Origin: Phycisphaerales bacterium
GTDB lineage: Bacteria; Planctomycetota; Phycisphaerae; Phycisphaerales; UBA1924
Length of the DNA: 13,445 bases
Reading direction: 5' to 3'
Assembly: GCA_026982035.1 (NCBI GenBank)
Contig: JALSHW010000252.1
Location: forward strand, 1-13,445
Shown here: piece after piece, positions 9,833 through 13,396 of the stretch
How the letters are laid out: every line of letters begins with the position of its first letter
Numbering within the stretch: position 1 is the first letter of the stretch
Position numbers and translations under genes: made by a program
The notes under the pieces: model-generated
The model's input: only the letters and a program-made list of their open reading frames with translations
What the model was told of the DNA's origin: nothing
The model's database searches: none

Positions 9833-12800
9833 TCAATGGGCGTTTGAAGCCGTATTTCGCACAATCGGGTCCGAAATAATACAACTCGTTCCACCAATTT
9901 TCTCCAAATCCTGCAGCGCATGAACCCCCCAAATCCCTGCACGCAACGCCTCGATCGCATGAATTGCCTGCCCCGCAGCCGTCGCCGTGGTAATCATCGG
10001 AATCCCAAGCCGCACCGCCGTCGCCCGGATACTCCCCTCATCGGTCTGCCATCCCGTCCGCGTCGGCGTGTTGATCACCAACTGAATATGCCCATTCTGC
10101 ATTAAGTCCATCACATTGGGACGAGCCCCCGCCTGAATCTTCTGCAATACCTTGGGCTGCAATCCATGGCGTGATAACTCATCAGCCGTCCCCTGCGTGG
10201 TAAACACCTTGAACCCCATCGCCATCAGCGACCGCACCACCGGGACCATCTCGGCCTTGTCTTCCTGCCGCACCGACACAAACACGCCACCTTCTTTAGG
10301 CAACGAAACCCCCGCCGATTCCATCGCCTTCAAATACGCCATCGGCAGCGAAACATCAACACCCATCACCTCACCCGTCGATCGCATCTCAGGGCCAAGC
10401 ACAAAGTCCACCCCAGGAAATTTCCGAAACGGAAACACCGGCGCTTTGACGGCAAAGAATCCCGCATCAGGAATCTCCATTGTCCCTTGATCTTTGAGCG
10501 AAACCCCCATCATCGCCTTGGCCGCCACCGATGCCCACGCCACACCCTTGGCCTTGCCCGCATAAGGGACTGTTCTTGAGGCGCGAGGGTTCACTTCGAT
10601 GATGTACACCGTGTCGTCTTTGATCGCCATCTGCACATTCATCAGCCCGCAAACCTTGAGTTCCTCAGCCAGCATCCGAGCAATCCGTTTGATCTCAGTC
10701 AGCACCGAGCCCCGAATCGTCGTCGTCGGAATCATGCAGGTCGAATCCCCTGAATGTACCCCCGCATGTTCAATATGCTCCATCACCGCCGCGATGTAGG
10801 CCCCACCAGCCCCCCGTGGCACAGGCGTCTCGCCTGTGTCTTCTCTTTGATTCTGTTGAGTATCTCCAAAGTCCACAGGCGGGACGCCTGTGCCACGGGT
10901 TATTGGAGTTCCAAAATCCGCCACCACATCAACATCCAGTTCCAACGCATGATCCAAGAACTGGTCAATCAAAATCGGCGCATCATCAAGCCCCGAAACA
11001 TCCACCGCCGTCAGCATGTAGTGCCGCAACGCCTTCTCGTCCGGACAAATCTCCATCCCCCGCCCGCCCAGCACATAGCTCGGCCGCACCAAAACCGGAT
11101 ACCCAATCCCCCCCGCAATATCCACAGCCGCATCAATCGACCGAGCAATCCCCGACGCAGGCCGCTTGAGATCGAGCTTGGTCAACATCTGATCAAACCG
11201 ATCCCGATCTTCTGCCCGATCAATCGCCTCCAATGGCGTCCCCAACATCGGCACCCCGGCCAGATCAAGCCCATGAGCCAGATTCAGCGGCGTCTGCCCG
11301 CCATACTGCACAATCGTCCCGTGCAACGACGCCTCAAGTGTCTCCGTCACATTGAGCACATCTTCGAGCGTCAACGGCTCAAAGAACAACACATCACTCG
11401 TGTCATAGTCCGTACTCACCGTCTCCGGATTCGAGTTGATCATCACCGCGTCGAATCCCAGTTCTTGAGCCGCATACGCCGCGTGGACACAGCAGTAATC
11501 AAACTCGATCCCCTGCCCGATCCGGTTGGGCCCGCCACCAAGGATAATAATTTTCTTCTTCGGATCAATCTCAGCCGCCATCCGGTCGCGCAACTCACAC
11601 TGGGCCGGAACTTCAACCACCGACCCGTCTTCAAGCACTTTCCGCGATCCCGCTTGGTAGGTCGAGTAGTAGTAGGGCGTCACCGCTTCAAACTCGGCGG
11701 CACAAGTATCCACACACTTGAATACGGCCTCAACACCAAGGCCCTTGCGATGAGCCCGCACTGTTAAAATCGTCTCCGAACTGATCTTCCCAAGATACAC
11801 TTGCGCGAGCTGCGCATCCGAATACCCCATCTCCTTGGCCCGCTGCATGAGCGACCGGTCAACAAGTTCCAACGAATCAACCGCCATCAACTCATCTTCA
11901 AAATCAACGAGTTCCTGCATCTGATACAAAAAGAACCGATCAATCCCCGTCAGATCATTGATCCGATCAATCGACCACCCCATCTTCATCGCGTACCGAA
12001 TAAAATACAGCCGTCCCTGCGAAGGCACCGACAACTTCCGCGTCAACTTGTCTTCGTCAATCGGCCATTCGATCTCGCCATCATGTTCCCGCTGGGCGTT
12101 GAGCCAATCATCGTTCTTGTCAAGCCCAAATCCAAACCGCTTGAGTTCCATCGAGCGGATGACCTTCTGGAATGACTCCTTGAATGTTCGACCGATCGCC
12201 ATCGCTTCGCCAACAGATTTCATCTGCGTCGTCAGCGTTTCGTCCGCCTCGGGGAATTTTTCAAAAGTCCACCGTGGCATCTTGGTCACCACATAATCAA
12301 TCGTCGGCTCAAAGCACGCACTCGTCGTTCCCGTGATGTCATTGCGCAACTCATCAAGCGTGTACCCAACCGCAAGTTTGGCCGCGATCTTGGCAATCGG
12401 GAACCCGGTCGCTTTGGATGCCAATGCCGACGACCGTGACACCCGCGGATTCATCTCGATCACCACAAACTCAAACGCCGGCTCGCTTCCATCAGCAGTG
12501 GGGGCCGGGCTGGGATTGATCGCAAACTGCACATTACTCCCCCCAGTCTCAACCCCAACAGCCCGCATAATCGCCAGCGACGCATCCCGCAAGACCTGGT
12601 ATTCTTTATCCGTCAGCGTCAAGCACGGCGCCACCGTCACCGAATCCCCCGTGTGCACCCCCATCGCATCAATATTCTCAATCCCACACACCACCACGCA
12701 GTTGTCCTTCTTATCGCGCACCACTTCGAGTTCATATTCCTTCCACCCGATCAGCGATTTATCAACCTGAATTTGCCCGATCATCGACGCCCCAAGCCCG

Positions 12801-13396
12801 CGTGTCACAAGTTCTTCAAGTTCGGCATAGTTGTACGCAATCCCGCCGCCCCATCCCCCCAAAGTGAAGGCCGGGCGAATGATCGCTGGGAGTCCGACCT
12901 GTTCGATAAACGCCACCGCTTCGGCAAGTGTTTCGACCGTCACCGAATCAGGGGTCGGCAATCCGATCTCCGCACAAATGTCATTGAACACTTGCCGATC
13001 TTCTGCCCGGTGAATAATCGCTCGATCCGCCCCGATCATTTCGATTCCAAACTCTTCAAAGATCCCCAAATCGCTCATTTCACAGGCGCAGTTGAGGGCC
13101 GTCTGGCCGCCGAGTGTCGGCAGCACCGCATCAATCGGGAATCCGAGTTCGATCTCCTTCTCGATAATCTTCCGAACAGACTCCGGCGTGATCGGCTCGA
13201 TATAAGTCCGATCCGCAAACGCCGGGTCGGTCATGATCGTCGCTGGATTCGAGTTGACCAGAACGAGCCGGTACCCCTCGGCTTTGAGCGATTTACACGC
13301 CTGGGTGCCCGAATAATCAAATTCGCACCCTTGTCCAATGACAATTGGGCCAGATCCAATCAGAAGAATCGTATTGAGATCATCGCGTCTGGGCAT
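9833..13396 (-). CDS. carB: Carbamoyl-phosphate synthase large subunit with an in-frame REPIN insertion
   Basis: Makes carbamoyl phosphate from bicarbonate, ammonia (supplied by the CarA glutaminase) and two ATP, feeding pyrimidine and arginine synthesis. At 1187 residues it is about 110 longer than the E. coli enzyme. The two homologous halves are complete: [17 protein letters not shown] (about 14-30) and [10 protein letters not shown] in the first, [17 protein letters not shown] and [15 protein letters not shown] in the second; between them lies the oligomerisation region with [19 protein letters not shown]. The C-terminus ([14 protein letters not shown] to the end) is the MGS-like allosteric domain. 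Residues 833-862 are encoded by a palindromic repeat and split DVDVVAD from [17 protein letters not shown], which are nearly adjacent in normal CarB. The first glycine-rich loop reads GGWGGG (Trp182) where Ser or Thr is usual. The reading frame is unbroken and all core motifs remain, so the enzyme is probably active. Start ATG 13396 has AGGA 8 bases upstream. carA is not in the window. Confidence 0.97.
10813..10899. repeat. REPIN-like palindromic element inside carB
   Basis: Two 26-base arms, 10813-10838 and 10874-10899, are inverted copies of each other with 25 of 26 positions matching, around a 35-base spacer. Each arm is itself a small hairpin: CACAGGCG, a three-base loop (TCT on the left, GGA on the right), then CGCCTGTG. 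The whole unit is 87 bases, exactly 29 codons. On the carB strand it is translated as [13 protein letters not shown]..., ending ...[10 protein letters not shown]. Such paired REP sequences (REPINs) are usually mobilised by RAYT transposases encoded elsewhere, and the GTGGCACAGGCG core is, from memory, a common repeat of planctomycetes and verrucomicrobia. No RAYT gene is in the window and this is the only copy here. Confidence 0.88.

Follow-up and report, generated by a model that had tools for sequence, protein, structure and literature searches.

A REPIN read in frame within carB and its likely mobiliser, a RAYT inside valyl-tRNA synthetase, in Phycisphaerales

In-frame palindromic repeats and REP-associated transposases

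GTAG-tagged palindromic dimers are inserted in frame in genes that include uvrA, uvrB, UvrD and those of tRNA synthetases, and the organisms with such intragenic GTAG REPs include members of the PVC superphylum (Di Nocera 2013, PMC3733652). For recB one case of different REPs at about one site is described (PMC3733652). The Rickettsia RPEs are CGTC-tagged palindromic inserts that are likewise read in frame in proteins, and are described without an associated transposase (PMC3733652). According to the original prediction on the DNA studied here, in-frame palindromes in proteins are best documented in Rickettsia; this needs revision in view of the intragenic GTAG REPs, also from the PVC superphylum, described in 2013 (PMC3733652). 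Since in-frame intragenic REPs have been published, an insert in carB alone is a further case of a known kind (PMC3733652).

TnpA_REP is a transposase of the HUH-Tyr type with inverted GTRG-tagged REPs on its borders, and some tnpA_REP genes themselves contain REPs inserted in frame (PMC6006769, PMC8266576). These genes are treated as free genes with a median length of 148-325 aa over all subclasses, and a few TnpA_REP proteins of unexpected length were excluded, being regarded as fused genes or errors of annotation (PMC6006769, PMC8266576). REP transposases are regarded as domesticated, housekeeping-like genes and the mode of repeat spread as unexplained (PMC8266576). The available portions of the open-licence literature were found to contain no account of a tRNA synthetase with a RAYT inside it.

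Here a REPIN within a planctomycete carB gene is compared with these systems. It is proposed, with a probability of roughly 0.7, that CarB tolerates this REPIN in a beta turn and that its likely mobiliser is a RAYT that is read in frame in valS and moves among the valS genes of related species.

A REPIN inside carB

The window, that is the whole stretch analysed, comprises 13,445 nucleotides (contig JALSHW010000252.1 of assembly GCA_026982035.1). The source assembly is a fragmented MAG of 1.47 Mb in 321 contigs that is 56% complete, and its relatives carry the label Phycisphaerales, an order of planctomycetes. The carB product is a confident CarB (PRK05294, 1510 bits, cut-off 599); three matches to it were counted in its own assembly and among those listed there is one besides carB, with 31% identity over part of the query.

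Table 1 Features of carB and its repeat (positions in the window)
Feature	Position	Strand	Details
carB, carbamoyl-phosphate synthase large subunit, host gene	9833..13396	-	1187 aa, open frame throughout
REPIN, two inverted GTGG-tagged REP hairpins	10813..10899		arm comparison; relatives without the element
Arm 1	10813..10838	+	tag GTGG 10816-10819, hairpin 10820-10838
Spacer between the arms, 35 nt	10839..10873		
Arm 2	10874..10899	-	hairpin 10874-10892, tag complement CCAC 10893-10896
Loop that joins two beta strands, CarB residues 829-866	10799..10912	-	alignments, predicted model

The existence of an 87-nt REPIN-like repeat with inverted hairpin arms in an open carB frame, as originally predicted, is borne out (Table 1). 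The arms of 26 nt each are complementary at 25 of 26 positions (96%) at a spacing of 35 nt, and each forms an 8-bp hairpin with a 3-nt loop. On the coding strand arm 2 is the upstream arm, read RGTGVPPV, and arm 1 the downstream arm, read DTGETPVPR. The GTRG-type tag (GTGG), the 8-bp hairpin and GTAG-tagged variants in congeners place the repeat in the GTAG superfamily, and the inverted REP pair, the dispersed copies and a RAYT bordered by the same repeats are all those of a REPIN. A strong mRNA hairpin had also been foreseen, and the predicted RNA fold of positions 10793-10919 agrees with it at -69.4 kcal/mol (z -7.8; equally stable shuffles 0/200).

CarB residues 829-866 amount to 38 codons, as against 7 in the sister species G001, and in an alignment with E. 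coli CarB the insert lies between residues 769 and 774. The flanking segments had been placed about ten residues apart in the E. coli protein; the alignment puts 4 residues (770-773) between them there and 39 here. In a predicted CarB model of modest confidence (mean pLDDT 63.8) the beta strands 818-827 and 866-874 flank the insert, of which residues 831-862 have a pLDDT below 50.

When CarB was aligned with that of close relatives, the insert proved absent from the closest of them, G001, whose CarB is about 94% identical. Among the 20 other genomes of the genus the site is empty in G001 and 15 further congeners, one (G020) gave no CarB, and G011, G015 and G016 carry at the same turn an unrelated family-2 REPIN that is GTAG- or GTGG-tagged with the core GGGCTTCCAGCCCGT. 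A single origin of the CarB insert is rejected on the strength of these three congeners with another family. Of 112 homologues parsed among the best 120 of 825, a sample that is biased because the query contained the insert, 83 have loops of at most 14 aa and 29 have longer ones; 14 of the latter were assigned by script to family 1 or 2 and two more by eye (P0122, family 1 or 2; P0179, family 3).

Some further peculiarities of CarB were recorded. In another genome of the same order (G045, L059) the loop has AAGTGGCCAAGTGG...CACTCGGCCA repeats at the same turn that are unlike the four REP families. The CarB alignment of G006 (G006:C7:84069-84395) breaks near residue 690, and the same site in G008, G025 and G035 is affected, with 309-384 extra nt that mark a further insertion site. 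A TGA is found within the aligned C-terminal part of CarB in G009 (G009:C2:49750-50706).

Copies of the repeat in the source assembly

The hairpin CACAGGCGnnnCGCCTGTG, with up to two mismatches, occurs at 25 places in the 1.47-Mb assembly and its reversed control at none. These 25 hairpins make up 15 elements, a modest number for 1.47 Mb. A count of in-frame intragenic copies gave seven of the 15 within recognised genes, namely two in ValS, two in UvrD (one of them a single arm) and one each in UvrA, CarB and UvrB. Judged by the layout of reading frames, the remaining eight are outside recognised genes (the family search on flanks covered one of the eight); several of them are directly beyond gene ends, and one of these supplies the last residues of an M48 peptidase. 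No copy among the 15 elements of this assembly breaks the frame of a recognised gene. The arm is free of stops in each of its three frames, yet a single reading frame is used in all seven in-frame elements, with the upstream arm read GTGVPPV in each.

The earlier reading of the family as a mobile repeat that inserts into protein loops stands in so far as there is a GTGG-armed REPIN, a relative with an empty site, a RAYT and an in-frame position for 7/15 elements. It does not stand in its claim of a unit length divisible by three, which was rejected as a family property as the distance from GTGG to CCAC is not constant among two-armed copies: 83 nt in the carB copy, 77, 78 (three copies), 79, 83, 86 and 89 nt in others, and 549 nt in the RAYT-bearing copy.

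At the UvrA site the source genome has family 1 and G013 has family 4, and G016 has no element there (the comparison script read three of six loci). A separate stretch at L021:879-971 (residues 213-243 of the source UvrA) is skipped by congeners in the alignment and contains the repeat-like QWAIGNRKEKKK...AIAHCPLPIAPP. Three nucleotide-excision repair genes of one genome, uvrA (L021), uvrB (L028) and uvrD (L022), contain in-frame elements, which echoes the repair-gene bias in PMC3733652.

A RAYT inside valyl-tRNA synthetase

The search for a RAYT gene in the assembly found one bordered by the same arms, and it lies in frame inside valS (element C52:1533-2081). The borders are perfect inverted arms of 28 nt that belong to the carB family (family 1). 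The valS open frame of 1168 aa scores 873 bits as ValS (cut-off 704), and NCBIfam profiles recognise valine--tRNA ligase around the insert and REP-associated tyrosine transposase (NF047646) inside it. NF047646 gives 85.6 bits on the domain alone (cut-off 80) and 79.9 bits, just below the cut-off, on the whole ORF; PF01797 (Y1_Tnp) remains at 20.1 bits, below its cut-off of 23, and is absent from the Pfam scan listing. DHVH and the column of the catalytic Tyr, which mark an HUH enzyme, are invariant in 35/35 aligned ValS proteins. With a stricter pattern HUH and Tyr are both present in 107 of the 120 embedded RAYTs listed (the best 120 of 703), and three of the remaining 13 retain the residues in alignment A1.

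In an AlphaFold model of ValS (mean pLDDT 67.3) the RAYT is predicted to have a folded core at residues 501-640, with ten-residue means of 67-91, between linkers at 473-503 and 647-664 with a pLDDT below 50. The 50 matches listed each by Foldseek and VIA-align for the whole model are tRNA synthetases, and the best solved relative of the RAYT by sequence is TnpA_REP 4er8 (E 0.013). The source copy has an ATG after its upstream arm. A start codon of the RAYT's own was nevertheless rejected: in G001 and G010 an ATG occurs only 21 codons into the RAYT, and no ATG, GTG or TTG is present in G013 and G014 from 60 codons before to 30 codons after its start.

The strong hairpins bring the insert ends together, as would suit a removal of the inserts before the mature enzyme by ribosomal bypassing, RNA splicing or protein splicing. 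Such removal would need neither an open frame nor its preservation, both of which are found in the seven in-frame elements of the source assembly and in eight occupied ValS genes, and the Pfam scan of ValS found no intein domain, so that the insert does not qualify as an intein; this explanation is considered very improbable.

The RAYT in ValS is the only one seen with the same arms in the 56%-complete assembly, which contains two other RAYTs that are free-standing, 34-35% identical and located on contigs without carB-family arms. A search of the genus with this RAYT returned six best matches that are all in ValS frames, with identities of 51-100% in five genomes and 35% in G013, and the remaining matches are less than 40% identical in frames of 161-367 aa. 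These data bear on the possibility that the REPINs are mobilised by a free-standing cognate RAYT missing from the assembly, with the ValS copy a mere passenger. The incompleteness of the assembly and the free-standing state of its two other, unrelated RAYTs speak for it. However, in G010, G014 and G016, which are 90-92% complete, the only RAYT more than 50% identical is in ValS, and in G013 (93% complete) the best RAYT (35%) is in ValS as well. Free-standing relatives moreover reach at most 55% identity (best 120 of 1081), as against up to 75% for ValS-embedded ones (best 120 of 703). A missing free RAYT is judged unlikely, and the RAYT inside ValS is the likely mobiliser of the carB REPIN, which it would transpose as an active enzyme.

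Occupancy of the ValS loops across the genus

Among 21 genomes, the source genome included, ValS site 1 is occupied in eight and empty in 11 of the 19 assessable; the count leaves out G008, where the contig ends at the site, and G011, which gave no usable ValS match. All occupied sites have open frames and contain family 1 in the source genome (G000), family 2 in G001, G010, G014 and G016, family 3 in G015 and G018, and family 4 in G013. The family-3 elements have NHVH and WT, but YVLDEQ or YVLHEQ, which is close to, though not an exact match of, the motif YV[VI][AENY]EQ printed, along with NHVH and W[TA], for class 3 TnpA (Quentin 2018, PMC6006769). In these eight genomes a second ValS loop contains either a short element or a remnant in which one arm is clear; in G016 it belongs to another family. 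The 11 genomes with an empty site 1 have a short second loop (in G006 and G007 judged from the alignment gap alone). Between species, the element family that fills a given loop of CarB, ValS or UvrA differs.

On a CarB tree of 18 genomes ValS occupancy needs six changes, and starred branches force four of them. The clustering of occupancy on this tree does not exceed that of shuffled labels. Occupancy has changed at least 4-6 times within the genus.

REPIN number is associated with ValS occupancy. The summed arms of the four families number 24-186 in occupied genomes versus 0-23 in empty ones, a separation that is narrow at its edge (24 in G010, occupied, versus 23 in G006, empty). The exact one-sided rank p is 1 in 75,582 and the tie-corrected two-sided p is 2.9e-4, both with shared descent ignored. 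All four independent pairs agree (p = 0.125), which are too few for significance and rest on a cut-off of 24 arms chosen after the counts were seen. G008 and G011, which fall outside the ValS comparison, are REPIN-rich (27 and 59 arms). The cognate family is not always the commonest, as G014 and G016 have more family-3 than family-2 arms, and the source genome has 25 family-4 versus 24 family-1 hits, family 4 being nearly palindromic with a few places counted twice. Low family-2 counts are background because the 15-nt family-2 pattern gives 0-2 control hits per genome.

Histories of the RAYT and of ValS

The bodies of ValS in G000 and G001 are 86% identical and their RAYTs 53%, and the values for G013 and G016 are 85% and 42%. 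The reverse holds for G001 and G016, where ValS bodies of 70% identity contain RAYTs of 87% identity with a dN/dS of about 0.08. In 458 of the 2080 pairs formed by 65 usable ValS proteins (out of 73), the RAYTs resemble each other more closely than the host enzymes do. As a source of the RAYT similarity between G001 and G016, conversion of valS segments is not favoured; the upstream identity is ordinary and only that of the element is raised. The downstream valS flank is uninformative because all 21 pairs have a high identity there (0.82-0.93), and target-site duplications are unreadable because the loops diverge too fast.

In a FastTree phylogeny of the top-scoring 120 of 703 embedded and 120 of 1081 free RAYT hits, the distinction between ValS and other requires 5 changes, compared with a mean of 63 and a minimum not below 54 for 200 sets of shuffled labels, a test that ignores the kinship of the organisms. 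ValS-embedded RAYTs thus appear as clusters on this tree. This clustering, and a dN/dS of about 0.08-0.12 in the three closest RAYT pairs, would also be expected of a domesticated, vertically inherited ValS domain with a host function. That view is quite improbable, as a single genus shows at least 4-6 changes of occupancy, similar ValS proteins hold different RAYT families, and the RAYT is absent from 11/19 assessable genomes.

Other hosts and other organisms

A broader search among proteins of 0.55-1.75 times the ValS length found 703 that contain a RAYT, of which the best 120 were examined. ValS and the PF06634 'putative DNA methylase' type were recognised by scripted motifs and the rest typed from Pfam accessions and a reading of the flanks. 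These 120 comprise ValS (73), the methylase type (23), AlaRS (5), LeuRS (5), PurH (3), restriction-like proteins (3), IleRS (2), MetH (1) and others (5). In 113 of these 120 at least 150 residues of other sequence lie on both sides of the RAYT, and the upstream arm is in the TG-x-PV frame in 62/73 ValS and 28/47 other hosts. Four host proteins have two RAYTs each, the AlaRS P0022, P0032 and P0056 and the MetH P0021.

All 73 RAYT loci in named records were typed, as nine ValS, 27 other frames of at least 400 aa and 37 shorter frames or fragments. Eight of the nine ValS hosts are labelled Phycisphaerales and one Planctomycetota, and some of these genomes are identical to genus genomes. Seven of the 27 other long frames were scanned and represent three LeuRS, two HsdR, one CarB and one SNF2-helicase-like protein that scored below its cut-offs; NF047646 is below its cut-off of 80 in all seven, with 61-73 in four. 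Two LeuRS frames have an embedded RAYT flanked by GTGVPPV peptides, one of 1639 aa in Roseibacillus persicicus KCTC 12988 (L152) and one of 1161 aa in Luteolibacter pohnpeiensis KCTC 22041 (L156), and both exceed the LeuRS cut-off. An Akkermansia-labelled MAG has a 1332-aa CarB frame (L146:1384-5379, 1692 bits) with a RAYT-like match from residue 540 that lies between the CarB halves (profile positions 467/479), a site that differs from that of the carB REPIN.

The source being a fragmented MAG, an assembly artefact or chimera could be suspected. The same architecture in the ValS of Phycisphaeraceae bacterium D3-23 (P0034), a 4.6-Mb record, and with LeuRS as host in both KCTC strains makes this explanation scarcely credible.

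Free-standing short RAYT frames also occur in planctomycetes (Gemmataceae, Kuenenia and one Phycisphaerae). Among the matches listed in a family-wide Pfam search, at least 20 are in frames above 600 aa, and those below 1e-14 are all in frames of at most 485 aa. A sample of the phylum has a RAYT match in 80 of 199 genomes, and at least 14 frames above 600 aa are among the matches listed; such frames being few, RAYT embedding appears to be a minority habit in this sample.

Proposed mechanism

It is proposed that the REPIN lands in a beta turn of CarB, where it would form a loop on the protein surface. The insert would survive because the frame is kept and it reads as a flexible peptide rich in Gly, Pro and Thr. 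The RAYT in valS would be translated as an internal domain of valyl-tRNA synthetase. Full-length elements may pass from one valS gene to another among related species, into the same loop, and may seed the short non-autonomous copies in the second ValS loop, CarB, UvrA, UvrB and UvrD. Embedding in an essential gene would shelter the transposase against decay, since any frameshift would be fatal to the host gene.

On the best reading, translated mobile elements are tolerated in loops, and a ValS-specialist RAYT lineage behaves in a homing-like, non-splicing manner, with mobility, translation and catalysis being inferred. Chances are even that this represents a class of non-splicing, homing-like HUH transposases that are translated from host promoters, shielded from decay inside essential enzymes, move between the same loops and seed REPIN loops. 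That the essential enzymes concerned would be above all ValS in Phycisphaerales has equally balanced odds.

The likely new part is a transposase in frame in an essential gene, as the probable source of the repeats and with site-faithful turnover, its translation and activity being presumed. Since the RAYT is inside an essential enzyme, the family of the occupant varies from one sister species to another and the repeat load tracks its presence, REP spread becomes testable within one genus. Essential enzymes that repeatedly accept a whole transposase domain are a natural record of insertion-tolerant sites, and the embedding points to a possible route by which a parasite evades decay without splicing. 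Culture-collection strains with a LeuRS host make bench tests feasible.

Comparison with known systems

Inteins and homing elements are in-frame, same-site, replaceable occupants of essential genes. Inteins have splicing, whereas no splicing domain was found here. The enzyme involved is an HUH-type transposase, and the insert is apparently retained in the protein.

The elements share with the Rickettsia RPEs the in-frame palindromic insertion in proteins, but differ in that they carry GTGG or GTAG tags rather than CGTC and have an associated RAYT (PMC3733652). The intragenic repeats in the accessible portions of Di Nocera (2013) are all short, whereas a whole in-frame RAYT is a feature of the present system, as is family turnover at one site across a genus, for which those portions hold no counterpart (PMC3733652). 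The RAYTs of REPtrons are encoded by free tnpA_REP genes, whereas the one described here is an internal segment of ValS with a changing occupant (PMC6006769, PMC8266576).
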